Source: Colwellia sp. M166 (GTDB lineage Bacteria; Pseudomonadota; Gammaproteobacteria; Enterobacterales; Alteromonadaceae). Taken from it: DNA of 64,000 nt. The position numbers and the translations under genes were made by a program. Shown here in pieces: positions 17,406 through 31,061 of the stretch (positions within the stretch are counted from its first letter, which is position 1; the number at the start of each line of letters is the position of its first letter). Location: positions 1,984,001 to 2,048,000 of the forward strand of contig NZ_CP040755.1 of the NCBI RefSeq assembly GCF_024585285.1, written 5' to 3'. Below the pieces are notes generated by a model that saw only the letters and a program-made list of their open reading frames with translations, searched no databases and was not told the origin of the DNA.

Positions 17406-17430
17406 GCCGCAACAAGCGTTGCGGCTTTTT
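17406..17430 (+). terminator. Intrinsic terminator of the haem operon
   Basis: An 8-bp perfect GC-rich stem (GCCGCAAC at 17406-17413 with its complement at 17418-17425), a 4-base loop and a run of five T. It sits about 60 bp after the hmuS stop and closes the operon. Confidence 0.92.
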
Positions 17431-17617: not shown

Positions 17618-18154
17618 ATGCCAAATAATAAAAATAGCAAAAAAGAGCAACAGCCAGATGTCACTCCGACAAATGAACTTGATCAGCTTCGGCAAATTGT
17701 TTTTGGCGCAGCAGAACAACAACTAAAACAACAAATTGCCTCAACACGCAGCGATATTGAGCAGGCGTTAAGTAAACAAAATAGCAGTTTTAATGATCGT
17801 CTAGTGCAAATGCAGGAAAATATTAACAAACGATTTACTGAGCTTGAGCAAAAATTACAACTTTTTGATAAAAACCATGACGATAACGAGGCTTCAATTG
17901 AGAAAAATCTTGCCAGTCTATCATCAGAGCATGAAATGTTTACCAGCGCTACTCAACAAGATTTCAAAAATATAGAGCAAGCAATTGATCATGAAAGTCA
18001 GTTGCTTACCGGTAATTTTAATGAGCAACTAGAACAATTAAAAACACATCTTGAAGCGGTATCAAATGAACTTAGCTCTTCAAAAACCGACAGAAAAACC
18101 TTGGCTAAATTACTCGCAACCATGGCAACCAATTTAGAAGACGACCAAATATAA
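17618..18154 (+). CDS. Coiled-coil protein of the GTPase/OmpA cluster
   Basis: A soluble 178-residue protein, very rich in Gln, Glu, Lys, Asp and Asn, with long heptad-like helices over nearly the whole chain (about residues 18-175) and no membrane segment or signal peptide. An early motif, LRQIVFGAAEQQL, is echoed by LEKIRTLLLGKE at the start of the next protein, suggesting a shared short domain or common origin of their N-termini. It ends in TAATG overlap with the next gene, so the two are coupled. No catalytic motif is visible; a scaffolding or GTPase-effector role is an inference from the neighbourhood. Confidence 0.75.
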   Translation: MPNNKNSKKEQQPDVTPTNELDQLRQIVFGAAEQQLKQQIASTRSDIEQALSKQNSSFNDRLVQMQENINKRFTELEQKLQLFDKNHDDNEASIEKNLASLSSEHEMFTSATQQDFKNIEQAIDHESQLLTGNFNEQLEQLKTHLEAVSNELSSSKTDRKTLAKLLATMATNLEDDQI

Positions 18155-19914
18155 TGCCAACTGATGCCGCAACAGATCATGCTGACTCAGAGCAACAATT
18201 AGAAAAAATACGTACCCTGCTCTTAGGTAAAGAAAACAGCAAAGTAACAGCAAGCATAAAAAAAGATGCTCGTAGCCTAGTGGCTGATGTTATTACTGAA
18301 GCACTGCATGATAGACAAAAAAAAGACAATTCAGTGAATAAGGTACTGCAACCATTCGTTGAAGAGTCCGTTAAACAATCTGTTGCTCACAATAGTGAAC
18401 AACTGGTTAGCGCTTTATACCCACTTGTTGGTAGCTTGGTCAGAAAGTCTGTTGCTGCTTTTCTTAGTGATTTTATGGAGAAAACCAATCAGTTACTAGA
18501 AAATAGTTTAACCATCAAAGGATTAAAATGGCGCTTTAAAGCACGGCAAAGTGGCATCAGTTATGCTCAATATGCCGCATCACAAACCTTTGTTTATCGT
18601 GTAGAACATGTTTTTCTTATTCACAGAGAGAGCGGTCTATTATTAAGCACTGTTGCTCGGGAGCATGAAAGTAACAGTAACGCAGATATTGTCTCTGCCA
18701 TGTTAACCGCGATTAATGACTTCGTTGGTGATTCGTTTCTAACCGATCAAGAAGGTCAAAAAGAACAATTACAAGCGGTGAGTACCGACAACTTTAACTT
18801 ACTGATAAAACCAGGACCGAGTGCGCTAGTTGTAGCTGCCGTGAGTGGTAATCCACCGCAAAGTATCAGTAATCAACTGCAACTGACACTAGAAAACATC
18901 CATAGTTTATACTTTGATGAACTCAATAGTTTCAATGGTGACAATAAAGACTTTGATAGCGTCGACAATTTATTACGCGACTGTTTGTTATCTGAACAGA
19001 AAACCGTAACAGCTGAGAAGAAGAAAATTCCTTGGTTGGCTTGGTCAATCGTATCATTAGTTATGATCTACGTCGGATACCAATCCTTTAACTGGTTTAA
19101 AAGCGCCCAGCTGCACGAAAAAATAATGCAACTAGATAATCAACCTGGGATCATTATCAAGCGGCTAAAAATAAATCAGCTTGATAACATCAGCTTAGAT
19201 ATATTACGCGATCCCGATGCCTTAAATATTAATGATTGGCTGAAAGAAAATGCATTAATTCCAGCACAACTCACGATTACTGAACGTAACTATCGCTCGC
19301 TTGATCAACAAATATTACAACAACGAGCGCAACGTATTATTTCAGCATATCCAAGTATTAATGCTAGTTGGCAAAATCATCACCTTATGATTACTGGCAC
19401 CGTAGATTTAATAAAAATAGAACAACTACGCAACACTCTAGCTATCGCCGGCTTCACCGAAGGAGAAAACCTTAACACTGAACAACTCACGTTGGTAGCA
19501 AACTCTCCTTCAATAGCCAGCGAAGAAATTAAGCAACAACTGTTTGAGCAGTTAATTGGTCGCATAGCATCTATTCAACTTAATTTTTCAGTTGCCAGTG
19601 AAAGTATCACCCCACAAATGCAAACATCATTACAGCGGCTATATCTGTATATGCAACAATTAACCCCGATAGCTAAAGACCTTAATATTGATTTTGGTTT
19701 ACTCATTTTAGGCAGTAGCGATAACACCGGCAGTAAAAACACTAATAACATTTTGAGTATAAAAAGAGCCAACAATACTGCAGAGATATTACAGAGCAAA
19801 GGCATAGCTAAAGATAAAATGTATGTGGTTGGTTTAGGGCAGATAAACATCAAAAATATTAGCAGGACAGCAAGAAGCGTTATGTTCAAGGTAATATATA
19901 TAAATCACGACTAA
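18154..19914 (+). CDS. Longin/roadblock-like domain + membrane helix + OmpA-like protein
   Basis: A 586-residue protein with a distinct modular layout. Residues 1-145 are helical. Residues about 148-265 look like a longin/roadblock-type fold, opening VEHVFLIHRESGLLLS and followed by an ADIVSAMLTAINDFVGDSF helix. One membrane helix lies at about 292-309. Residues about 310-470 contain a BON-like segment. Residues about 480-586 resemble an OmpA peptidoglycan-associating domain, with LGSSDNTGSKNTNN and SIKRANNTAEILQSKGI. The cytoplasmic half would face the GTPase encoded next, and roadblock/longin proteins are known partners of small GTPases (MglB with MglA). Domain calls are by eye and moderate; the overall topology is clear. 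Confidence 0.72.
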   Translation: MPTDAATDHADSEQQLEKIRTLLLGKENSKVTASIKKDARSLVADVITEALHDRQKKDNSVNKVLQPFVEESVKQSVAHNSEQLVSALYPLVGSLVRKSVAAFLSDFMEKTNQLLENSLTIKGLKWRFKARQSGISYAQYAASQTFVYRVEHVFLIHRESGLLLSTVAREHESNSNADIVSAMLTAINDFVGDSFLTDQEGQKEQLQAVSTDNFNLLIKPGPSALVVAAVSGNPPQSISNQLQLTLENIHSLYFDELNSFNGDNKDFDSVDNLLRDCLLSEQKTVTAEKKKIPWLAWSIVSLVMIYVGYQSFNWFKSAQLHEKIMQLDNQPGIIIKRLKINQLDNISLDILRDPDALNINDWLKENALIPAQLTITERNYRSLDQQILQQRAQRIISAYPSINASWQNHHLMITGTVDLIKIEQLRNTLAIAGFTEGENLNTEQLTLVANSPSIASEEIKQQLFEQLIGRIASIQLNFSVASESITPQMQTSLQRLYLYMQQLTPIAKDLNIDFGLLILGSSDNTGSKNTNNILSIKRANNTAEILQSKGIAKDKMYVVGLGQINIKNISRTARSVMFKVIYINHD

Positions 19915-20027
19915 ATAACCTGAACTCAGGATAAATAAAATAATAAGGTGACTCTGTTGTAAATAAGAGTAGTATTTTAAGTGGTATTATTAATAAACAA
20001 CAAGCGGTCGAAAAGGGAGGTGACGCT

Positions 20028-20543
20028 TTGATTCAAAAAAAAATCTGCCTATTAGGCGCATCGAGTGTTGGTAAAACCAGTTTAGTTAAACAATTTGTCG
20101 AAGGTATTTTTAGTGAAAAATATCTAACTACCATTGGTGTTAAAATTGACAAAAAAACGCTATCGATAGCAAATGAGCAAGTTAATCTGCTGCTATGGGA
20201 TATGGAAGGCAATGATAGTTATAACGTTTTTCAAGAGAAGTACTTACGCGGTGCTGCTGGCTATATTATAGTTGTTGATCAAACTCGTGCTTCTTCATTG
20301 CTTGAAGGTATCGACATTCACACGCTCGCACGCCAAGTTACTGATTGCCCAGCAATATTGGCCATTAATAAAAGCGACTTACTGGCTACCTGGCATTTAG
20401 ATGACAGCGAATATGAAGCCTATCAAGATTTATTTGCTCTGCATTTTTTAACCAGTGCTAAAACTGGCAATAATGTCGAGCAAATGTTCTCATCATTGGC
20501 TGAATTGCTATTAAAGCGTGAAAAAAATGACCTCACTACTTAA
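20028..20543 (+). CDS. Ras/Rab-like small GTPase
   Basis: A 171-residue small GTPase. G1 is GASSVGKTSL, G2 the TTIGV loop, G3 WDMEGND, G4 NKSD and G5 SAK. The start must be TTG at 20028, since no ATG or GTG lies in frame before it; a very strong GGGAGG site sits seven bases upstream. In G3 the residue matching catalytic Gln61 of Ras is Asn, suggesting slow intrinsic hydrolysis or dependence on a partner. It lies between the longin/OmpA membrane protein and the GGDEF-EAL gene and overlaps the latter, so it plausibly links envelope state to c-di-GMP. Prokaryotic Rab-like GTPases are known, but their roles are mostly undefined. Confidence 0.88.
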   Translation: MIQKKICLLGASSVGKTSLVKQFVEGIFSEKYLTTIGVKIDKKTLSIANEQVNLLLWDMEGNDSYNVFQEKYLRGAAGYIIVVDQTRASSLLEGIDIHTLARQVTDCPAILAINKSDLLATWHLDDSEYEAYQDLFALHFLTSAKTGNNVEQMFSSLAELLLKREKNDLTT

Positions 20544-22668
20544 TACCGCTTTAAATGCCTTAGAACAAGTTGTACTGGAAGTAACTGACGCCAAATCCTG
20601 CACAGTAAAATTACTGGAAGGTGGTAGCACATGGGCAAGTGATTTATTCCCCCAATCTAGCGATCAACAAGCATTTACTATTAATGAAGATATTCCTTTT
20701 TTACTGGATTTTCTCATTGATGCTAAAACCATTTGGCAGCAACAAGAAAATGCTAAATTGCACTCGGGTTTATGGACTGAAATAACCTCAAATAATAAAG
20801 AGTTACATTTAGAAGCCATTGCGATAAAACACCAGCAACGCAATATTTTAGTGATAAGTAACCAATTAGAAAACTTTAAAATTCAACAAAAAACTAAACA
20901 GTTAGCACGTGAAGTTTTATTGTCTTACGATCGACTTTTTTTAAAAAATGAATATCTGCATACACGATTACTGTCTATTTTAAATCAGCCTACCGACCAA
21001 AGTAATGTGCTAGCAACACTGGCTAAAGTCATTGAAAATGCAGAGTTTGCAGTTTTAATTGCTAGTAAAGACTTCACCACCAGTATTGAAAATTCAGCCG
21101 CACTCAGTCTATTTAAACAAGATGATTTACTAAGATCACAATCGGCTCGCCCGATAGACATTCTCATTACCTTGATGAAAAATCAATTACCTGAATACCA
21201 ACGCATACTCGCAACAGGCTCAAGTTGGGATGGCGAGTTGTGTTGGATTTTGCCTCCCTCAACGCTAAAGTGGCTGAAAATCGGCTTTTATCCGGTAAAA
21301 AGCAAAAACAACCAAGTAGAAAGCTGGATCATATTTGCCAACGACATCAGCACCATTAAACACTTAACACAGCGTAACGAATTACTTGCAATGCAAGATA
21401 TGCTAACAGAGCTACCGAATCGCTTTGCGTTTTGGCAAACATTAGAAGAGCATATTGCTTCGAAACAAGCATTTTATTTACTCTATATTGATATTAATGA
21501 CTTTAGGCGACACAACGAATTTTATGGTCATCATGAAGGTGACAAGTTACTCATCGAACTCAGTAAGCGTATTCGCCGCGTTATTAAAGCCGTTGACTTT
21601 ATTGCCAGAGTCGGTGGTGATGAGTTTGCTATTATTCTCAGTGGTATTGATAATAAAAAAGCCTGCGAATTAGCCATAAAACGCATCATAGAAAATATTA
21701 ACAAGCCATTTCAAACTAAAGAACTCGAGCTTTTCGCAATTAAGGTTAGCATTGGCGTCGCCAATTACCCTAATGATGCAGAAAGCGTTGAAGAGTTAAT
21801 GAAATTTGTCGACTTGAGTGCTTATAACGGTAAGAAAAACAAAAAAAACTCAGTGCAATTTTATTCAAAATCAATGAAAGATGCTTCACATGACCTAATT
21901 AAAATAGAACAAGAGTTACGACAAGCAATCGCAAACAACGAATTTGAATTATATTTACAACCGATTATTGATGTCAAAACTAACTGCATTAACAAGGCCG
22001 AAGCATTGATCCGCTGGAATCATCCAGAAAATGGTTTAATCAGTCCGGACCAGTTTATTCCTATCGCTGAGAAAAGTGGTTTAATAATAGCACTAGGTCA
22101 ATGGGTTATAAGCCGCTCTTGCCAAATAGCGAAAGCAATTAATCAGCTAGGTTATAATGTTAAAATATCCATGAACCTATCCCCTTCTCAGGTCACTGAC
22201 GTTAATTTATTTTCTCATTTACGTAGCTGCATTAAAGACAACCAACTTAACCCTGGCTTATTAGAGTTAGAAGTCACAGAAGGTGTATTAGTTGATGATT
22301 ATGCAGTCGCAGAGAAGTTATTAAGCAAAGTCAGAATGATTGGTATGAGCGTTTCTGTTGATGATTTTGGCACCGGTTACAGCTCGCTTGCCTACTTAAA
22401 AAAACTACCATTAGATTATTTAAAAATTGATCGCTCATTTATTAAAGAAATTGTCACCGATGATAACGATAAAGCGATAGTGCGGGCCGTTATTGCTATG
22501 GCCCATAATTTAAATTTATGCGTCACAGCAGAAGGCGTTGAAACTAAAGAGCAACTAACCTTCCTGATTAATAACTCATGTAACTCAGTACAAGGTTACA
22601 TGTTAAGCAGACCGATTAAATTAGAGCATTTCATTAAGCTGCTTAATGAACAAAAAACCATAAACTGA
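20527..22668 (+). CDS. GGDEF-EAL c-di-GMP turnover protein
   Basis: Start at ATG 20527 (an in-frame GTG lies at 20518), overlapping the GTPase gene. The first 140 residues are unrecognised and soluble, a PAS-like sensory segment lies at about 155-285 (DELCWILPPSTLKWLKIGFYP region), and then come GGDEF (RVGGDEFAIIL, about residues 363-367) and EAL (AEALIRW, about 492) domains. The EAL motif set also includes DDFGTGYSSLAYL and AEGVET. Both catalytic motifs look intact, so synthesis, degradation or both are possible. There is no transmembrane helix, so localisation presumably depends on the cluster partners. It is last in the four-gene unit and converges on the cfa-like gene. Confidence 0.9.
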   Translation: MTSLLNTALNALEQVVLEVTDAKSCTVKLLEGGSTWASDLFPQSSDQQAFTINEDIPFLLDFLIDAKTIWQQQENAKLHSGLWTEITSNNKELHLEAIAIKHQQRNILVISNQLENFKIQQKTKQLAREVLLSYDRLFLKNEYLHTRLLSILNQPTDQSNVLATLAKVIENAEFAVLIASKDFTTSIENSAALSLFKQDDLLRSQSARPIDILITLMKNQLPEYQRILATGSSWDGELCWILPPSTLKWLKIGFYPVKSKNNQVESWIIFANDISTIKHLTQRNELLAMQDMLTELPNRFAFWQTLEEHIASKQAFYLLYIDINDFRRHNEFYGHHEGDKLLIELSKRIRRVIKAVDFIARVGGDEFAIILSGIDNKKACELAIKRIIENINKPFQTKELELFAIKVSIGVANYPNDAESVEELMKFVDLSAYNGKKNKKNSVQFYSKSMKDASHDLIKIEQELRQAIANNEFELYLQPIIDVKTNCINKAEALIRWNHPENGLISPDQFIPIAEKSGLIIALGQWVISRSCQIAKAINQLGYNVKISMNLSPSQVTDVNLFSHLRSCIKDNQLNPGLLELEVTEGVLVDDYAVAEKLLSKVRMIGMSVSVDDFGTGYSSLAYLKKLPLDYLKIDRSFIKEIVTDDNDKAIVRAVIAMAHNLNLCVTAEGVETKEQLTFLINNSCNSVQGYMLSRPIKLEHFIKLLNEQKTIN

Positions 22669-22721: not shown

Positions 22722-23951
22722 TTACTTTCTAGCAAGTAAATGAACGGTACTGGTCGAGCGCTCTAAAAAAGCACCTTCACAATATGCAAAATAATATAGC
22801 CATAAACGTTTAAATTTTTCATCATAACCAAACTGTGTCAGCTCTGACCAAGAATTTAAGAACGCCTCTCGCCAATGGGCTAATGTTTTTGCATAATCTA
22901 AACCTATATCGTCAATCGATTCTGTTACAAGCTCGGTATGTTGGGTAAGGTTTTGCGTTAAAATCGTCACTGAAGGTAAAAAACCACCGGGGAAAATATA
23001 ACGCTGAATAAAATCAACATTCTGTTTGTAGTAACCAAAACGTTGATCAGCAATAGTGATTGACTGTATTAATAACTTACCGCCTGATTTCAAACGTTGG
23101 TTACATTGCTGGAAAAAGCTCGGTAAATATTCAAACCCAACCGCTTCAATCATTTCAATTGACACTAACTTGTCGTATTCACCGGTTAAATCACGGTAAT
23201 CTTTTTTTAATAATGTTATTTGCTCTGTCAAGCCTAAGGCTTCAATACGTTGCTTTGCATAAGCATATTGTGCATCAGAAATGGTTGTTGTGGTAACTTT
23301 GCAGCCATAATGCTGAGCGGCATAAATAGCTAAACCGCCCCAACCTGTACCTATCTCTAATAAATGATCAGTGGTTTTTAATTCCAAACGCTGACAAATA
23401 GTCGACAGCTTATGCTGTTGCGCCTGCGCTAAGCTAGCTTCCGCTTGTGGGTAAATCGCTGATGAATACATCATTTGTGGATCAAGAAAGCGACTATAAA
23501 GCTCATTGCCTAAATCATAATGAGCAAGAATATTCTTTTTTGAACCTGTTTGACTGTTACGATTGCTACGATGTAATAAAGCGTATTTAAGTTTAGTTAA
23601 CCAAGGTTTTTTTTGCTCAAGTGCATCGGTTTGCTGCTGAGCGCGAGCAAAAATTCTAATAACTGTGGTTAAATTAGGACTGCTCCATTTGCCAGCAATA
23701 TAAGCCTCAGCAGCTCCTATGCTGCCACCCTTAACAAAATCACGATAAACACTGCTGTCATGAATATTAATACGTCCCAGTAAGGATTTATTTTCCGCAA
23801 ACTCAGGAAATAGAAAGCGCTGACTATTATCAACCAATTCAATTTGCCCGTAGTCAAGTTTTGCTAAAACTGAGAACACTAAACTACGACAACGCTTATC
23901 TAACCAATTAGCTTGTTTTCTTACTTTTAATCCTGACACTTGTTCCACCAT
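22722..23951 (-). CDS. CFA-synthase-family lipid methyltransferase (divergent active site)
   Basis: A 409-residue member of the cyclopropane-fatty-acyl-phospholipid synthase family, with the fold landmarks HYDLGNELYSRFLD, the SAM motif LEIGTGWGGLA, IEMIEAVG and YIFPGGFLPS. Compared with E. coli Cfa, the bicarbonate ligands appear changed: the Cys is Ser164, the His is Gln296 and the Tyr is Arg361, while the Glu (Glu269) is kept. It may therefore methylate unsaturated lipid chains without making cyclopropane. It is the last gene of the ChrR-linked stress cluster and has an AGGAG site four bases before the ATG. A link to furan or branched fatty acid formation, as described for Rhodobacter ChrR-sigma-E regulons, is an inference. 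Confidence 0.85.
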   Translation of the reverse strand: MVEQVSGLKVRKQANWLDKRCRSLVFSVLAKLDYGQIELVDNSQRFLFPEFAENKSLLGRINIHDSSVYRDFVKGGSIGAAEAYIAGKWSSPNLTTVIRIFARAQQQTDALEQKKPWLTKLKYALLHRSNRNSQTGSKKNILAHYDLGNELYSRFLDPQMMYSSAIYPQAEASLAQAQQHKLSTICQRLELKTTDHLLEIGTGWGGLAIYAAQHYGCKVTTTTISDAQYAYAKQRIEALGLTEQITLLKKDYRDLTGEYDKLVSIEMIEAVGFEYLPSFFQQCNQRLKSGGKLLIQSITIADQRFGYYKQNVDFIQRYIFPGGFLPSVTILTQNLTQHTELVTESIDDIGLDYAKTLAHWREAFLNSWSELTQFGYDEKFKRLWLYYFAYCEGAFLERSTSTVHLLARK

Positions 23952-23993
23952 TAAACTCCTTAATTAAAGCTTTTTGACCTAGCGTTATAACAA

Positions 23994-24806
23994 TTACTTA
24001 GCTTTTTGATAGCCAATAAAGGGAATACCTTTACAAAAAATCTTCAAAGCTTGCCAATATATGCCCAAAACTATTTTCAAGGTCATTACCGGAAAATTAC
24101 ACCAGAGCTTCCATAGCGAGGTACGGGTAAATGGCACTTTGGTTAAATTCATTGTTGCAGCAAATATTTTTTGCTCAGCTTTACCATTTTCACTGTCACC
24201 TTTTGAGTGGTTTTCAATATGAACGAGTAACTTGCCACTATTGAGCATCGGTGGCTTAATTCGCCATTGATAACACATATTCAAATCCATAAAAGGTGAC
24301 ACCTGAAAATTTTTCTCGGTAATATGAGGCTTGGCATCGAGTTCACTGTTTTCATCATGACTTAACGGTACTAAATAATAATGCCGCTCATGCCACGGTG
24401 TATTACTCACTTCCACTAACACTTGCTGACAAATTTCATTGGCGTCATAGCAAAAATAAAAATTTGCTGGACTAAAATAAAGCCCTAAACACCTAACCTG
24501 AACTAACATAGTGATGCGAGCTATCTTGTCAGCAATATCATCATTAGCCGTTAAAACTGCTACTTTATTCTTTATACGTTGCTTAAGAGATCCTGGTTCA
24601 CCTTTTAGATAATCATTTTGCTCAAACCTCAACAAATTAAACCAAGCAAAACCAAAAATGCCTTTCGGTGCTTGTTTTTTTTCCATTTCATCAGCATCAA
24701 GCGCCAGCATATATAACTGATAGTTAAAGCTATGTGGCTTAGGGCTAAAGCGTCGATGGCTGATTTGCCCGCGATAAATATGACTATAAGGAGAGTGTTC
24801 AGTCAT
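23994..24806 (-). CDS. DUF1365 protein
   Basis: Conserved protein regularly encoded between a CFA-type methyltransferase and an FAD-dependent oxidoreductase. The N-terminal pattern YRGQISHRRFSPKPHSFNY and the later FYFCYD segment are typical. The longest ORF reaches 24842, but this overlaps the upstream gene by 31 bp and adds residues unlike the family; ATG 24806 gives MTEHSPYSHIYRG and lies 5 bp after the upstream stop, so it is preferred (270 residues). No catalytic residues are known to me. A role in fatty-acid or membrane modification is inferred from its neighbours. Confidence 0.85.
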   Translation of the reverse strand: MTEHSPYSHIYRGQISHRRFSPKPHSFNYQLYMLALDADEMEKKQAPKGIFGFAWFNLLRFEQNDYLKGEPGSLKQRIKNKVAVLTANDDIADKIARITMLVQVRCLGLYFSPANFYFCYDANEICQQVLVEVSNTPWHERHYYLVPLSHDENSELDAKPHITEKNFQVSPFMDLNMCYQWRIKPPMLNSGKLLVHIENHSKGDSENGKAEQKIFAATMNLTKVPFTRTSLWKLWCNFPVMTLKIVLGIYWQALKIFCKGIPFIGYQKAK

Positions 24807-24811
24807 GATTA

Positions 24812-26083
24812 TTACTTCGCTGCACTGTCTTGCAAATAGCAATCAAATCGCTGCGCTACATCAACAGCGCTTCTGACGCCATCTTCATGGAAGCCGCTAT
24901 ACCAATATGCACCAACAAAATGAGTGTTTTGTTGACCACATATCTGTATACGTTGACGCTGCGCTTCAATAGACGCTATTGAAAATACCGGATGATGATA
25001 AGTAAATTCTCGCAATACTTTACTCGGGTCAATATCCTCTCGCTGATTCAAAGTGACACAAAAAGTATGCTCAGAATTTAATCCCTGCAAGATATTCATA
25101 TTGTAAGTAACGCTCGCAGGCTTGGTTCTATTTGAAGTTAATTGATAGTTCCAACTCGCCCATGCCTTTTGCCTTTTCGGCAGTAAACTAATATCGGTAT
25201 GTAACACCACAGAATTATCGCTGTAAGGTATCGCACCCAATATATTTTGTTCTTGCTCGCTCGCATCACCAAGTAAAGCCAGCGCTTGATCAGAATGACA
25301 AGCCAATACCACTTCATCAAACGTTTGTATTTCACCGCTAGCAAAATGCAGCTGAACTTGGTTATTTTCTCGTGTTACCGCACTAATATCAGCGTTAAGA
25401 TGAATATTATCAGCGAACGATGCAGACAAAGGTGCCAAGTAGCTTCTCGATCCCCCCGGCACAACATACCATTGTGGCCTACCGGCTATATTCAATAAGC
25501 CATGGTGATGGAAAAAATTAACAAAAAACTGAAATTGAAACTGCTCCATTTGCTCTAAGGAACTAGACCAAATCGCAGCCCCCATCGGCAAAATATAATG
25601 CTCAGCAAAGTAATCACTGAATTTATGCTCACTTAAAAACTCGCCTAAGGTCAATTGCTCAGTATAGTTTTTGCTTTGAAAGCTTTGTTTGCACAGTTTA
25701 TTAAATTTAAGAATATCGCTAATTAATAACCAAAATTTCGGGTTGAAAATATTACGACGCTGTGCAAATAAGCTATCAAGGTTATGGCCGTTATACTCCA
25801 TCCCCGTATCCGTATTATGTACCGAAAAGCTCATTTGTGTTTCTTGCTTACCGACACCTATTTCGTCTAATAACGCTAAATAGTTTGGATAGGTTTTATT
25901 ATTAAAAACAATAAAACCAGTGTCGATGGCATACCATGTGTTATCAACTTCAACATCTACCGTTGCGGTGTGTCCGCCGATAGCCGAAGCCTTTTCAAAA
26001 ACACTCACTTGATGCTTTTTAGCTAATAAATAGGCGGCAGTTAAACCCGACACACCTGATCCGATAATAGCGATATGTTTCAT
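24812..26083 (-). CDS. FAD-dependent amine-oxidase-like oxidoreductase
   Basis: A 423-residue flavoprotein with the N-terminal dinucleotide fold IIGSGVSGLTAAYLL, the second signature FEKASAIGGHTATVDV and the C-terminal FAD contact HFVGAYWYSGFHEDGVRSA. It belongs to the amine-oxidase/phytoene-desaturase-like family found next to DUF1365 and CFA-type genes. Together these three probably modify unsaturated fatty acids in the membrane. It overlaps the SDR gene upstream by 4 bp (ATGA), so translation is coupled. The substrate is not known. Confidence 0.88.
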   Translation of the reverse strand: MKHIAIIGSGVSGLTAAYLLAKKHQVSVFEKASAIGGHTATVDVEVDNTWYAIDTGFIVFNNKTYPNYLALLDEIGVGKQETQMSFSVHNTDTGMEYNGHNLDSLFAQRRNIFNPKFWLLISDILKFNKLCKQSFQSKNYTEQLTLGEFLSEHKFSDYFAEHYILPMGAAIWSSSLEQMEQFQFQFFVNFFHHHGLLNIAGRPQWYVVPGGSRSYLAPLSASFADNIHLNADISAVTRENNQVQLHFASGEIQTFDEVVLACHSDQALALLGDASEQEQNILGAIPYSDNSVVLHTDISLLPKRQKAWASWNYQLTSNRTKPASVTYNMNILQGLNSEHTFCVTLNQREDIDPSKVLREFTYHHPVFSIASIEAQRQRIQICGQQNTHFVGAYWYSGFHEDGVRSAVDVAQRFDCYLQDSAAK

Positions 26084-26823
26084 TTTTTCTCACTCTTTAA
26101 GGCAATATTTTGCCAAACAACGTCAGGAAATAGCGCGAGCAGTTTCAATAACAAGGTTAATCTTTTGGGAAAATGTAGATAAGATTTTTTAGCGCTTACA
26201 CCTTGATAAATTCGGCTAGCCGCTTGTTGACTGGATAGTAAAAATGGCATAGAAAAATCATTTTTATCCGTTAATGGCGTTTTGATAAAACCAGGGTGTA
26301 CGAGAGTTACAGCAATATCTTGCGCTTTTAAATCTATCCGTAAGCTATTGGCTAAGTAATCAATACCTGCTTTAGAAGCACCATAAGCTTCGGCTCGAGG
26401 AAACGGCAATAATGTCGCACTAGAGCTAATAAATACAACCTGCCCTCCGGCATCCACTTTTGGTAAAAAATACTCTAGTAAATAACCTAAAGATTGCAGA
26501 TTTGTTGCGATAACACTAGCAAATAACTCGCCATCAAATGCCTTGGCATTGTCGATATAGCGACAATCACCGGCGTTAAACATTAAAATATCTATACGGG
26601 CTATTTGCTTGAGTTCAGCTGCAGCGGCTTTTATTTGCTCACTATCAGTAATATCAAAGGCAACAGGAATAACATCGGCATTACTATCAGCTAGTTGTTT
26701 AAGCTTTTCTTTATTACGACCACAGGCAATAACCTGATAGTCGTTGGCTAAGTAATGATGTAGCAAAGACTCGCCGATACCAGAAGTAGCACCGGTAATA
26801 AGAATAGTGCGTTTTGCATTCAT
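26080..26823 (-). CDS. Short-chain dehydrogenase/reductase
   Basis: A classical SDR of 247 residues: NAD(P)-binding GATSGIGESL at about 11-20, an MFNAGD segment (the NNAG position), the catalytic Ser in VFISSSATL, and YGASKAG with catalytic Tyr and Lys. The HPGFIKTPLTDKN segment follows. The preference of the SNADV region for NAD or NADP is unclear. It is coupled by 4-bp overlaps to both neighbours, so it is an integral part of the photo-oxidative operon. The reaction is unknown, probably an alcohol/ketone conversion on a lipid. Confidence 0.88.
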   Translation of the reverse strand: MNAKRTILITGATSGIGESLLHHYLANDYQVIACGRNKEKLKQLADSNADVIPVAFDITDSEQIKAAAAELKQIARIDILMFNAGDCRYIDNAKAFDGELFASVIATNLQSLGYLLEYFLPKVDAGGQVVFISSSATLLPFPRAEAYGASKAGIDYLANSLRIDLKAQDIAVTLVHPGFIKTPLTDKNDFSMPFLLSSQQAASRIYQGVSAKKSYLHFPKRLTLLLKLLALFPDVVWQNIALKSEKK

Positions 26824-27299
26824 GAGTTGGTCGCCCTACGTTTCAGGAAGCGAATAATGCGTCCTAATAAAGGTACTTGTTCATAAAGCATTGCGCCTAA
26901 ATCGATATAATCACGATGAAAAATAACTTTATCGCCATCACCTCTTATGTGCGAGCTACCTTGTACATGCACCACATTACCGGCATTTAAACGTGGATGC
27001 TGATAGCTCATATTCCAATAAATAGCCGCTTCATTTTCTTCTGCTATCACCTGCTCAATACTAAATTCACAATAGCTGAGCTGTTGATACAGTCCATCAA
27101 AATAATGGGCTAATTGCTCAAAACCGGTCAGTTTATGCATGGGATCAATAAAGGTAATATTTTGATGATAAAGCTCAGCTAACAAGTGCAAATTATCAAC
27201 CGATAATCGCTGATAGATATCGACAAACTTAATTAACCAAAGTGCATGCGGAGGTTGAATATTTAATTCATTCGCTTGCTGAAATTTTTCATCTGACAT
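26820..27299 (-). CDS. SnoaL/NTF2-like protein
   Basis: A 159-residue protein with the alpha+beta cone pattern of the NTF2/SnoaL fold: an N-terminal helix, YHQNITFIDPMHKLTG, a central strand region with AIYWNMSYQH and an RDYIDLGAMLYEQVPLLG end that is typical of the SnoaL-like proteins of ChrR/photolyase clusters. An AAGGA site precedes the ATG. It could be a small-molecule binding or isomerase-like subunit; no catalytic residues can be named. Confidence 0.8.
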   Translation of the reverse strand: MSDEKFQQANELNIQPPHALWLIKFVDIYQRLSVDNLHLLAELYHQNITFIDPMHKLTGFEQLAHYFDGLYQQLSYCEFSIEQVIAEENEAAIYWNMSYQHPRLNAGNVVHVQGSSHIRGDGDKVIFHRDYIDLGAMLYEQVPLLGRIIRFLKRRATNS

Positions 27300-27364
27300 A
27301 AAGACTATTCCTTGCTATGCCTTTATTCTTGAGCTTATTTCAACAAGCATAATATCCATTACTG

Positions 27365-28768
27365 TTATCTATAAAACTCAAGAGCGGCTAATCTAGCTTG
27401 CTTATGGTCAACAATAGCCGGCCAATAAAGCGTTAATTTTTCTTTGGCGAGATATTGATGCGGAAAATGAATTTCTTTATCAGGTAATTTCGCCAGCTCT
27501 GGTATGTACTTACGAACGAATTCACCTTTAGGATCAAATCTTTCGCTTTGTCGTATCGGGTTAAATACTCGAAAATAAGGCTGTGCATCACAGCCAGTAC
27601 TTGCCGCCCATTGCCAGCCACCATTATTCGCTGCAAGGTCGCCATCAATCAGCTTTTGCATAAAATATTTTTCACCCCAACGCCAATCAATCAATAAATG
27701 CTTAGTCAGAAAACTGGCGACCACCATACGGAGTCGATTGTGCATCCAACCCGTTTGATTCAATTGTCTCATGGCAGCATCAACTAGCGGATATCCGGTT
27801 TTACCTTCGCACCAAGCACTAAATAACGCAGGGTTATTAGGCCAAATGACGGCGCTATATTTAGCGTTAAAGCACTGATGCTTACATAAGCCTTGTTTAT
27901 GAAAGATTAAATTACGATAAAATTCACGCCAAATAAGCTCATTTAACCAGGTGAATTCTGGGCTATCTGATGCCACCAAAATATCAGGAAAACGCTGTAG
28001 AAATAACAGTAGTAAATAGCGTGGACTAATCGCACCTATAGCTAAATAAGGTGATAAGCCAGACGTGGCTTTAATAGCAGGAAAATCACGTTTTTCGCCG
28101 TAACTGGCGACTTTATTTTGATAAAAATCAGGTACTACCTGTTGCTCAACCTGCTCGGCCAAAGGCCAAGCGTCAGACTCACCAGTAGATGTTAGCAGCG
28201 GCATTAACTCAGCTACTTCTTGCTCAGCGATCGTCTCGGTTTTTACTGGGCTAGGTTTACCAAGATAGTCAAAACCATGTTGTCGAACGTACGTTAGCCA
28301 AGCCCGTTTAAAAGGAGTGAATACTTTATACATTTCACCGGTTTTATTGAGCACTTTGCCTTTCGCGACAATCACATCGCTTTCAAACATCCGTAATGGA
28401 ATACCTGTTGCTAAGCAAAGTTGGTCACGTTGATTTTCATTAAATTCAAGTTCTTGATTCACCACTACTTCTTTAACATTATGTAGCTGGCAATAGCGCT
28501 GTAAAAATGAAATTTGCTCAGAAAAATCATCACAATGTACAACCTCTAAGCTGATATTTAATGACAATAGCTGCTTGGCAAGCGCATTAACATGACGCTT
28601 GATAAAATCAATTTTTATCGACGACCAGTCATGAGCTAGCCATTGTTTTTCGCTGACAAAAAAAACAGCTTTACCGGGAAGTAAGCCGTTTTTTTGTGCC
28701 AGAAAATAATCTAAAGCCGGATTGTCGTGTATTCTAATATCGTTGCGAAACCAAAGTAACAAGGACAT
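27365..28768 (-). CDS. phrB: Deoxyribodipyrimidine photolyase
   Basis: Blue-light DNA repair enzyme that splits cyclobutane pyrimidine dimers with reduced FAD. The N-terminal antenna domain starts LLLWFRNDIRIHDNPAL. The FAD domain carries WMHNRLRMVVASFLTKHL and the signature WAASTGCDAQPYFRVFNP. Length (467) fits class I photolyases. The annotated ATG has an AAGGA site directly against it; a TTG two codons later sits at the normal six-base distance, so the true start may be slightly downstream. Its position in the sigma/ChrR operon fits induction by light and singlet oxygen. Confidence 0.93.
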   Translation of the reverse strand: MSLLLWFRNDIRIHDNPALDYFLAQKNGLLPGKAVFFVSEKQWLAHDWSSIKIDFIKRHVNALAKQLLSLNISLEVVHCDDFSEQISFLQRYCQLHNVKEVVVNQELEFNENQRDQLCLATGIPLRMFESDVIVAKGKVLNKTGEMYKVFTPFKRAWLTYVRQHGFDYLGKPSPVKTETIAEQEVAELMPLLTSTGESDAWPLAEQVEQQVVPDFYQNKVASYGEKRDFPAIKATSGLSPYLAIGAISPRYLLLLFLQRFPDILVASDSPEFTWLNELIWREFYRNLIFHKQGLCKHQCFNAKYSAVIWPNNPALFSAWCEGKTGYPLVDAAMRQLNQTGWMHNRLRMVVASFLTKHLLIDWRWGEKYFMQKLIDGDLAANNGGWQWAASTGCDAQPYFRVFNPIRQSERFDPKGEFVRKYIPELAKLPDKEIHFPHQYLAKEKLTLYWPAIVDHKQARLAALEFYR

Positions 28769-28787
28769 TCCTTAATAATCAAGTGGG

Positions 28788-29747
28788 TTAATATCCGTAT
28801 CTCAGCTTTAACGATTCAGGATAAGGATTTAAATACGCTTGCTGAGCTAAATAATCATTAGGGTGTGCTAACAAATAATGATTAACCAAGGTCAGTGGCA
28901 CCATCAGTGGCACTAATCCCGTACGGTAGGCATCAACTTGTGCAGATAACTCTTTTCGTTGCTCTGCGTTTAAGTACTTTGAGAAATACCCTTGAATATG
29001 TGACAAAGTATTAGAATGATTTTTACACGTTGCTTTTATTGTTAACGCGGCCATCAAGCCACTAATATATTGCTCTGCCATTTCTTCAACGGGTAAATCA
29101 GCACGCGCCAATAAACGTCCGAGCTCTTTATAAGCAACCAGATTATGGCTCATCACGGTATATTTATATTGCGCATGAAAACTGGTCAGTTTATGTTTGC
29201 TAATGCCTGACTCGACCAATGCCAACCAATGACGATAAGCGTAAACACGAGCAACAAAGTTTTCGCGAATAATAGGATCATTCAAGCGACCGTTCTCTTC
29301 ACAAGGTAGCAGCGGGTTCGCTTTCATTATTTCTCGAGAAAAAACCCCAATACCTTTTGCTTGTAGCGGATCGCCAGTCGGCGAATACACTTTAACGCGC
29401 TCCATGCCACAGCTTGGACTTTTAGCACAAAATACATAGCCACTGAGGTTTTTAGAGAATGACGCTACTTTTTTACCATAAGCTTTAATCTCACTAGTAA
29501 CATCACCCGAGCCGTCAGGGCGTGACACCTTGATCATCTGCTCGTCTTTAATCAACCGTATGGTTGGACGAGGAATTGGCATACCAACAGCTACTTCAGG
29601 GCAATAAGCCTTGTAAGTTACATGCTGGCTTAGCTCATGAATACAAAAATTTGATGGTTTGTTGCTCGCGTCAAAACGAACTTTTTCACCAATTAAACAA
29701 GCACTAATGCCAATAAGCACATCTTCTTTTGTAAATTTTTTATGCAT
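28788..29747 (-). CDS. DUF523-DUF1722 protein (YbgA-like)
   Basis: Two-domain protein. The N-terminal DUF523 part (about residues 1-155) shows three conserved Cys motifs, SACLIGEKVRFD, YCPEVAVGMPIPRPT and AKSPSCGMERV, which match the iron-sulphur site pattern of DUF523 enzymes such as thiouracil desulphurase TudS. The C-terminal DUF1722 part (about 190-310) is helical and YbgA-like. Two in-frame ATGs lie at 29753 and 29747; the second has a better-spaced GGGA site and is used. It sits between photolyase and chrR, a linkage seen in other gammaproteobacteria, suggesting a role in light or oxidative damage; the actual reaction is not established. Confidence 0.85.
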   Translation of the reverse strand: MHKKFTKEDVLIGISACLIGEKVRFDASNKPSNFCIHELSQHVTYKAYCPEVAVGMPIPRPTIRLIKDEQMIKVSRPDGSGDVTSEIKAYGKKVASFSKNLSGYVFCAKSPSCGMERVKVYSPTGDPLQAKGIGVFSREIMKANPLLPCEENGRLNDPIIRENFVARVYAYRHWLALVESGISKHKLTSFHAQYKYTVMSHNLVAYKELGRLLARADLPVEEMAEQYISGLMAALTIKATCKNHSNTLSHIQGYFSKYLNAEQRKELSAQVDAYRTGLVPLMVPLTLVNHYLLAHPNDYLAQQAYLNPYPESLKLRYGY

Positions 29748-29758
29748 AGTCATCCCAA

Positions 29759-30442
29759 CTAATAAATAAAAGAGCCAATAGGGTTAAGCAACTTGTTGAT
29801 ACCTTGAGTAAAATGCAAAGCATCATTGGCAACGGTATAGCAAAGACAGCCTTGCTCAGTCGCTGGCTGATGTTGATGGCGCTTATCTAGCATGATAAAA
29901 TCACCTTGCACATACTCACCTTGTTCATCAGCAAAGGTCCCTGCTAATAGTAAGGTTAGCTCAAAACCTTTGTGTGTGTGCTCAGGTATAGAACCGCCAG
30001 CGCCAATGTGCAATAAATTAGTATGAATTCCACCTTCATCTAACAAGATGCGTGCCCGTGATAATTTACCTATTTGAGCGGTTTTTCCTAATGACATATT
30101 TCGTAGCGCATTAGGTAAAACATACTGTGTGCCTTTAAAACTAACCGAGCGTTCAACGCTAGCGGCTTTCATCGGCTCAACATCATCAGAAGCGGTAATT
30201 TGGCCAATGATGTCGTCAAAATCTAATTCAGCAGCTTTCGTGTCGGCATCATCAACAATAAACTCGGCATCAAAGCTTTCTTCAAAACTTGCCTCTGCCA
30301 CTTGTTCAGTGAGTTGAGTTACTTTTTGTTGGCACAAAGGACACATTTCAGCATGTATTGCGATACCAGCAGCAAGTGAAGCCGGTAAGTCACCATCAAC
30401 AAAACTTTGTAATAAGGAAAATTTAGGGTGGTGTTTAATCAT
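29759..30442 (-). CDS. chrR: ChrR-type zinc anti-sigma factor
   Basis: Holds the ECF sigma factor inactive until singlet oxygen or related stress. The N-terminal anti-sigma domain has the zinc ligand set His at 4/5, His30, Cys34 and Cys37 (HAEMCPLCQQ), equal in spacing to Rhodobacter ChrR. The C-terminal cupin domain has the metal-binding pattern PEHTHKGFELTLLLAG with a later RHQHQP, also as in ChrR. The ATG at 30442 follows a GGAG site by six bases and overlaps the sigma gene by 8 bp; a TTG at 30454 that would extend the ORF is less likely because it covers the ribosome site. Confidence 0.92.
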   Translation of the reverse strand: MIKHHPKFSLLQSFVDGDLPASLAAGIAIHAEMCPLCQQKVTQLTEQVAEASFEESFDAEFIVDDADTKAAELDFDDIIGQITASDDVEPMKAASVERSVSFKGTQYVLPNALRNMSLGKTAQIGKLSRARILLDEGGIHTNLLHIGAGGSIPEHTHKGFELTLLLAGTFADEQGEYVQGDFIMLDKRHQHQPATEQGCLCYTVANDALHFTQGINKLLNPIGSFIY

Positions 30443-31061
30443 GATGATCTCCAAGTTTCAACTTTAGTTTGCCAAGGGCAAGTCGAAGCCGCGATTTTAT
30501 CGTGCCAAGCGGTAAATTAAGATGAACAGCAAGTTGCTCTTGTGACATCTCCATAAAATAAAAACCTTTAACCACTTGCTGCTGATTTTCAGGCAGGGTT
30601 TCAATAACGCCGAGTAAATTACGACTTTGAATATGGTCAGTAAAACTTTCATCTTCGGTGTTTAATGCTTCAGCTATCGGCCAAATATCATCACTGAGAT
30701 TGTCTTCTTTATTGGCTTTCATTTTGCGCAATAGGTCAAAGGTCACGTTACGCATTATGGTGTATACCCATGTGGTGGCAGCACCTTTACTATCATCAAA
30801 TAAATGTGCCTTGCGCCAAACATTGCTCATGGTGTCTTGTAACACTTCAGCGGCAAGCGCCTCATTGTTCAGTTTGCTTTGAGCAATACGCTGTATTTTA
30901 GGGGCAAAGAATTTAAACACGCCAGTAAATGCTTGTTTGTCTCTATCAACCGCTATTGATTTAAGCCATTGACAAAGTTGGGAATGATCGATTTTATTAG
31001 TCATGCTACTAGATGTAGCAGCTGTTTGACGACTTGGCAACTCTGAATGAACAGACTGCAT
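30435..31061 (-). CDS. rpoE: ECF sigma factor, RpoE/ChrR (ECF11-like) type
   Basis: A 208-residue group IV sigma factor. Region 2 runs over about residues 40-110 (FKFFAPKIQRIAQ, then AAEVLQDTMSNVWRKA and WVYTIMRNVTFDLLRK); region 4 over about 150-205 (LPENQQQVVKGFYFMEMSQEQLA and GTIKSRLRLALGKL). The GTIKSR helix recognises the -35 element. It overlaps chrR, its antagonist. The family responds to singlet oxygen in photosynthetic and marine bacteria. The ATG at 31061 is used; an internal ATG at residue 20 has no ribosome site. A likely self-controlled promoter lies 32-60 bp upstream. Confidence 0.92.
   Translation of the reverse strand: MQSVHSELPSRQTAATSSSMTNKIDHSQLCQWLKSIAVDRDKQAFTGVFKFFAPKIQRIAQSKLNNEALAAEVLQDTMSNVWRKAHLFDDSKGAATTWVYTIMRNVTFDLLRKMKANKEDNLSDDIWPIAEALNTEDESFTDHIQSRNLLGVIETLPENQQQVVKGFYFMEMSQEQLAVHLNLPLGTIKSRLRLALGKLKLKLGDHHD

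Follow-up and report, generated by a model that had tools for sequence, protein, structure and literature searches.

The 64,000-nucleotide stretch of Colwellia sp. M166 DNA analyzed here (contig NZ_CP040755.1; hereafter the window) harbors on its plus strand a module of four genes that, judged by its gene types, the G3 motif of its small GTPase and a glutamine of its output protein, is a Group 1 Rup system, and in which a so far unassigned domain of the envelope protein is predicted to be a longin domain. Longin is the fold by which eukaryotic cells dock and switch on Rab proteins. Read as a whole, the module may consist of a membrane-anchored longin platform that loads the Rup GTPase, which in turn gates a cyclic di-GMP (c-di-GMP) phosphodiesterase, a reading that we hold to be evenly balanced.

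The Rup family of prokaryotic GTPases was defined by Wuichet and Sogaard-Andersen in 2014 (PMC4316618). In its passages on Group 1, that work describes Rup proteins without the G3 glutamine, very similar to eukaryotic Rab, Ran, Ras and Rho, whose genes lie beside three others: one for a predicted coiled-coil protein, one for a conserved domain protein, often with a transmembrane helix and an OmpA domain, and one for an output protein. Typical outputs are c-di-GMP cyclases/phosphodiesterases and histidine kinases, and their N-terminal region bears an invariant glutamine; according to the authors, the glutamine absent from G3 may come in trans, and these passages state that no Rup interaction had been characterized at the time of writing. 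The first-pass annotation of this DNA had held that no described pathway has this composition, which the published Group 1, with its coiled coil, its domain-helix-OmpA protein and its c-di-GMP output, contradicts. In the openly licensed literature we found no study of Group 1 Rup partners and, among titles and abstract openings, no longin assignment for the Rup-neighbor domain.

Conservation of the four-gene set

The four open reading frames of the module lie in order between positions 17618 and 22668; genes 1 and 2 overlap by 1 base and genes 3 and 4 by 26, with 113 bases separating genes 2 and 3. Open reading frames and Pfam matches agree with the domain composition given at first pass: a predicted coiled-coil protein of 178 residues (gene 1, 17618..18154), a 586-residue protein with predicted longin domain, membrane helix and OmpA domain (gene 2, 18154..19914), a Rab/Ras-like GTPase of 171 residues with a TTG start (gene 3, 20028..20543) and a GGDEF-EAL output protein of 716 residues with a GTG start (gene 4, 20518..22668). 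The coiled-coil nature of the gene 1 product is weakly supported: the Pfam matches behind it fall short of their cut-offs, and the heptad bias is weak (0.41 versus 0.28).

We collected 108 loci that encode the N-terminal part of gene 2, including the window and two contigs taken twice (L006/L050 and L018/L032), and counted for each part only loci with enough sequence. A gene 1 homolog lies directly upstream of gene 2 in 103/106 testable loci, a GTPase gene directly downstream in 100/104, and an output gene whose N-terminal domain belongs to one of two conserved types follows in 88/90. Of the 88 loci with enough sequence to judge every part, 84 have the complete set, so the arrangement is not due to chance. 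Full sets are found under seven phylum-level labels, as given by the sequence records: the window itself (1/1), two gammaproteobacterial sets (13/13 and 6/7), Acidobacteriota (7/7), Desulfobacterota (3/5), Dehalococcoidia (2/2), Cyanobacteria (36/36), Nitrospirota (15/15) and Coatesbacteria (1/1), with 0/1 in Latescibacterota. The scan of named genomes contributed the 80 best of 560 relatives, in the order of their resemblance to a single gammaproteobacterial sequence, so that their proportions per phylum mean little (Cyanobacteria 37, Nitrospirota 16, Acidobacteriota 9, Gammaproteobacteria 7, Desulfobacterota or ‘Deltaproteobacteria’ 5, Dehalococcoidia 3, Latescibacterota 2, Coatesbacteria 1). 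Of the four exceptions among the fully testable loci, L089 (Latescibacterota) has no GTPase, L050 is devoid of gene 1 but offers just 531 bases upstream, L082 (Desulfobacteraceae) has neither GTPase nor output downstream and carries a GTPase gene ahead of genes 1 and 2, and L084 encodes a sigma-54 protein whose N-terminus is matched by neither output model. Four further loci without a part (L006, L015, L017, L029) are not fully testable.

A further sample of 36 genomic regions, 32 from the order of the window and four from other gammaproteobacteria, harbors genes 1, 2 and 3 throughout (36/36; gene 2 of L162 is split over two frames). Gene 4 with GGDEF-EAL is present in 30/32 members of the order, the exceptions being L149, with a short GGDEF-EAL frame, and L164, with none. 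The expectation that the four genes stay together in relatives was thus borne out. Across the class, the gene 2 family had matches in 210/369 genomes, most listed rows being OmpA-only; among the matches listed, the N-terminal/longin region was found in the genome of the window and 27 others (L001, L003-L029). Within the 4.84 Mb contig that makes up the Colwellia sp. M166 genome, gene 2, the GTPase and the N-terminal domain of gene 4 each yield one match, a second gene 2 match covering the OmpA part only.

The first two gene products also have a motif in common. Gene 1 carries a conserved N-terminal motif, LDQLRQIVFGAAEQQ, at residues 21-35 (17678..17722), with R25 in 102/103 alignment rows and G30 in 103/103, and gene 2 a matching motif, LEKIRTLLLGKE, at residues 16-27 (18199..18234). 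Aligned by hhalign, the two N-termini match with a probability of 86% (P 4.9e-6), for segments picked by eye.

A predicted longin domain in the envelope protein

The gene 2 product, whose best named relatives are from Cognaticolwellia and Colwellia, has its predicted longin domain at residues 147-285 (18592..19008), a single membrane helix at about residues 292-313 (19027..19092), preceded by KKK, and an OmpA/Pal-type domain at residues 467-584 (19552..19905; Pfam OmpA at 478-572), in which D523 and R538 are two conserved residues. A conserved helical region (residues 1-140, 18154-18580) lies ahead of the longin domain. Hydropathy shows a sole peak above 1.3, at residues 292-310 (1.36 at 292), and the model places a helix at 294-329; the longin side would lie inside and the OmpA side outside.

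A first model of all 586 residues, built on 33 close relatives from 120 listed, had values of the predicted local distance difference test (pLDDT) mostly below 50 at residues 146-290. A second, built on 89 diverse N-terminal sequences, resolved residues 147-285 as a predicted domain with the longin topology b1-b2-a1-b3-b4-b5-a2-a3, also found by structure comparison. The unassigned domain of gene 2 is hence predicted to be a longin domain, as the first-pass annotation had suggested in proposing a longin-like domain here. Sequence identity to the structural matches is only 4-18% in the listed rows. The strands, helix a1 (S181-F195) and the loop joining a2 and a3 (F260, G262) are among the best-conserved places, and the sole near-invariant glutamine of the longin domain in the family, at position 152, is a histidine in the window protein.

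Compared with Pfam, the whole gene 2 N-terminus yielded scattered sub-threshold families (best 25 of 85), and compared with sequences of solved structures nothing convincing, the best match (E 0.22) being a MotA/TolQ/ExbB-type channel on the helical part. The earlier proposal had left open a roadblock fold. Roadblock chains do occur among Foldseek matches of the longin model (E ~5e-3 to 1e-2); their absence from the 50 listed structural-match rows is by itself uninformative. Robl_LC7 matched neither the window protein nor its longin segment in Pfam (other sequences being judged on the first 25 families) and has zero Pfam matches in the Colwellia sp. M166 genome, and hhalign of the segment against ten roadblock domains gave a probability of 0.5%. 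With longin as the best fold match and this profile probability, the longin half of the proposal stands and the comparison with roadblock/MglB is a loose one.

A GTPase without its catalytic glutamine and outputs with an invariant one

The gene 3 product matches Pfam Ras (9.9e-30), and its closest solved relative is Rab35 (E 6.7e-24). As a single-domain Ras-superfamily GTPase of less than 240 residues with the G3 aspartate, it is a Rup and not an MglA protein. Its G3 motif, WDMEGND (20196..20216), keeps the aspartate and has asparagine at the position of the catalytic glutamine. In the alignment, the aspartate is present in 100 of 101 rows, with one gap, and the glutamine in 0/100 rows showing a residue, window included.

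A candidate for the missing residue is found in gene 4. Its N-terminal domain (residues 1-145, 20518..20952; 76-row alignment), common to other Rup outputs, has no significant match in Pfam and no convincing one among sequences of solved structures, and S83, E99, Q128 and L135 are invariant in 39 rows. The Q128 position (codon 20899..20901), a candidate in-trans catalytic glutamine, is occupied by glutamine in 73/73 rows with a residue and in 39/39 and 31/31 rows of further sets. Downstream follow a GGDEF domain with its GGDEF motif (21388..21849) and an EAL phosphodiesterase domain (21910..22614). In 31 proteins of the same order, E495, N553, E585, D615, D616, K636, E672 and Q692, which we take to be the EAL catalytic residues, are kept in 31/31, whereas the exact GGDEF motif is kept in 17/31, window included, and departs in 14/31. 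This difference points to c-di-GMP breakdown as the retained activity of the same-order outputs.

Beyond this order, the output slot is filled variably. Pfam analysis of 63 first-type outputs, made up of the window protein and 62 from a set of 69 (seven cut or short ones left out), identified HATPase_c in 41, a sigma-54 activator domain in 12 and HD_5 in nine. A second type of N-terminal domain, which stands alone (~133 residues) in many cyanobacterial loci, likewise bears an invariant glutamine near its end (55/55 rows with a residue, the seed counted twice) and has no significant Pfam match; the search for it in the Colwellia sp. M166 genome gave no match, which is uninformative without a known positive. 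Both types occur in tandem in seven proteins. Treating them as one family was rejected on hhalign probabilities of 2.8% and 0.8%, and they are therefore kept as two families of like layout. Of ten proteins scanned further, four that have the second type contain a class III cyclase domain. At L041:9227-10249, L056:9325-10368, L080:6225-7256 and L104:8739-9665, the gene immediately after that of the GTPase encodes a class III nucleotide cyclase whose N-terminal domain is Rup-associated, a possible route from a Rab-like GTPase to cyclic nucleotides.

A putative envelope-anchored switch and its alternatives

The scheme proposed here builds on observed gene content, order, conservation and motifs and on a predicted fold; from these we infer all interactions, the membrane topology, the roles of guanine nucleotide exchange factor (GEF) and GTPase-activating protein (GAP), the signal and the direction of flow. 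The 586-residue protein would span the inner membrane, the longin domain facing the cytoplasm and the OmpA domain resting on peptidoglycan in the periplasm. Perhaps as a dimer, and held together with the coiled-coil protein through their common N-terminal motif, the longin domain would give the Rab-like GTPase its docking platform and probably its exchange factor, the part that longin pairs play in Mon1-Ccz1. In the Mon1-Ccz1 account of PMC5216073, the longin pair contacts its Rab via the a1 helices and the elbow loop, and the conserved a1 and a2-a3 loop of the gene 2 family match these contact places, which favors a role as platform or exchange factor. GTP-bound Rup would then bind the gene 4 product at its N-terminal domain, a contact that would switch the phosphodiesterase and let Q128 stand in for the glutamine missing from the GTPase; the output would thereby be both effector and GAP. 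What is signaled might be the state of the cell wall or simply position at the wall. In broad terms, this retains, as an inference, the earlier proposal of a GTPase governed by the longin domain and of envelope state passed on to c-di-GMP.

Several observations weigh against this scheme. The longin model is least certain at helix a1 and the following loop, where the face for the GTPase is proposed to lie (block pLDDT 61-73, residues 171-210). Fuz_longin_1 is the top Pfam family on the longin segment alone, at a sub-threshold level (E 0.094, 13.4 bits versus a cut-off of 26.1), and reaches such a level in 6/89 members of the gene 2 family; in a genome search its sub-threshold matches were found in 9/24 genomes, none of them gene 2 proteins, and also in 3/14 control genomes. 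Longin domains also function in SNAREs and clathrin adaptors, where they are not exchange factors. Moreover, the G3 glutamine is present in 1/36 GTPases of a second, partly overlapping set, and L089 (Latescibacterota) has genes 1 and 2 and an output with no GTPase beside them. The longin domain occurs in 40/147 genomes of the family of the window and 13/295 of its order, which makes the module patchy. Finally, some gene 2 relatives have no recognizable OmpA domain, and those of L040 (336 residues) and L054 (344 residues) are too short for one. Wall sensing is thus not core to the module, and the anchoring to peptidoglycan advanced at first pass is not general.

Alternatively, the longin domain might do no more than bring the GTPase to the membrane, in the way that SRX pairs with SR-beta through its longin domain; the GTPase would then position the complex, and c-di-GMP would be regulated otherwise. 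We consider this unlikely, as outputs with a conserved N-terminal domain follow in 88/90 testable loci, suggesting that the output belongs to the switch. Somewhat more doubtful still is an arrangement after MglB, in which the longin/roadblock-like domain would act as GAP on the GTPase, with the c-di-GMP enzyme as a plain effector. The common core of longin and roadblock folds, described in the relevant part of PMC10933270, the Foldseek roadblock entries (E ~5e-3 to 1e-2) and the description of MglB as both GAP and GEF of MglA in PMC11016934 speak for it; yet the segment has no likeness to roadblock profiles (0.5%, from ten sequences only), coupling of Rup genes to MglB is given as 0/121 in the Rup survey (PMC4316618), and the invariant glutamine sits in the output, whereas the near-invariant longin glutamine 152 is a histidine in the window.

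We give little credence to a reversed flow, in which the GGDEF-EAL protein would be a receptor for c-di-GMP and act on the GTPase and the longin-OmpA protein, in the inside-out manner of LapD. Departure of the GGDEF motif in 14/31 proteins, as in receptor-type proteins, and an envelope partner linked to OmpA would suit it, but all listed EAL catalytic residues are kept in 31/31, and other phyla put kinases, sigma-54 activators, HD-GYP proteins and cyclases in the slot, which are outputs and not c-di-GMP receptors. That the genes are neighbors devoid of any functional link is hardly credible, given the order common to 84/88 fully testable loci, the motif common to genes 1 and 2, and the single match in the genome for each of gene 2, the GTPase gene and the N-terminal domain of gene 4.

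Genomic surroundings of the module

Between an upstream CobN-like gene and the module, a terminator-like hairpin was read in the plus-strand sequence at 17406..17425 (GCCGCAAC..GTTGCGGC then TTTTT); a terminator scan reported the same stem for the opposite strand. The downstream neighbor of gene 4 lies on the opposite strand. At 22722-31061, a minus-strand cluster encodes an extracytoplasmic function (ECF) sigma factor, a ChrR-type anti-sigma factor, a photolyase, a short-chain dehydrogenase/reductase (SDR) oxidoreductase, a flavin adenine dinucleotide (FAD)-binding oxidase-like protein and a cyclopropane-fatty-acid-synthase-like methyltransferase, a set that resembles a singlet-oxygen response.

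Comparison with known systems

The module agrees with Group 1 Rup systems in its four gene types, in the missing G3 glutamine and in a GGDEF-EAL protein, which is among the named outputs; Q128 is the candidate counterpart of the invariant glutamine in the output N-terminus. It differs in that the domain before the membrane helix, unassigned in the Group 1 passages of PMC4316618, is here a predicted longin domain, and sigma-54 activators, HD-GYP proteins and class III nucleotide cyclases are added as outputs. Unlike the longin RabGEFs Mon1-Ccz1, Fuzzy-Inturned and TRAPP, the proteins described here have one longin domain each, carried on a transmembrane protein with a domain of wall-binding type, and their exchange activity is putative.

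MglA/MglB of Myxococcus and the conservons (CvnA-D) likewise combine a bacterial small GTPase with a regulator built on a small alpha/beta domain and with a signaling output. However, MglA has no G3 aspartate, which Rup keeps (PMC4316618, in its family descriptions) and which is present here as WD..G, and the regulators of these systems are roadblock proteins, whereas this genome has no Robl_LC7 Pfam match. Identity with a conservon was accordingly rejected: the set of histidine kinase, MglB, CvnC and MglA-type GTPase is absent and the partners differ. With LapD-type and dual GGDEF-EAL proteins, gene 4 has in common a tandem GGDEF-EAL with a regulatory N-terminus, but its EAL catalytic residues are intact (31/31) and not degenerate, and its N-terminal domain belongs to a family without a Pfam name and is not a periplasmic sensor.

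The presence of longin-like domains in bacteria is in itself no novelty, since PMC4917890 counts Longin/Roadblock among the domains present there, citing De Franceschi 2014. With a confidence somewhat short of even, we suggest that many bacterial phyla hold an operon-encoded Rab-longin pair with an envelope-anchored platform or exchange factor and two glutamine-bearing receiver domains, each both effector and GAP, on c-di-GMP, kinase, sigma-54 or cyclic-nucleotide outputs. If true, Rab switching by longin would be an ancient bacterial signaling device and not just a matter of eukaryotic or Asgard trafficking. The longin domain next to Group 1 Rup offers a concrete candidate platform or exchange factor, and the origin of Rab-longin regulation becomes testable in simple bacteria with a mix of three or four proteins. 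In the Asgard archaeon MK-D1, the small GTPase genes are, according to the gene-order passages of PMC10933270, not generally in operons with longin genes, whereas in the bacteria described here the GTPase gene and the predicted longin gene lie side by side.
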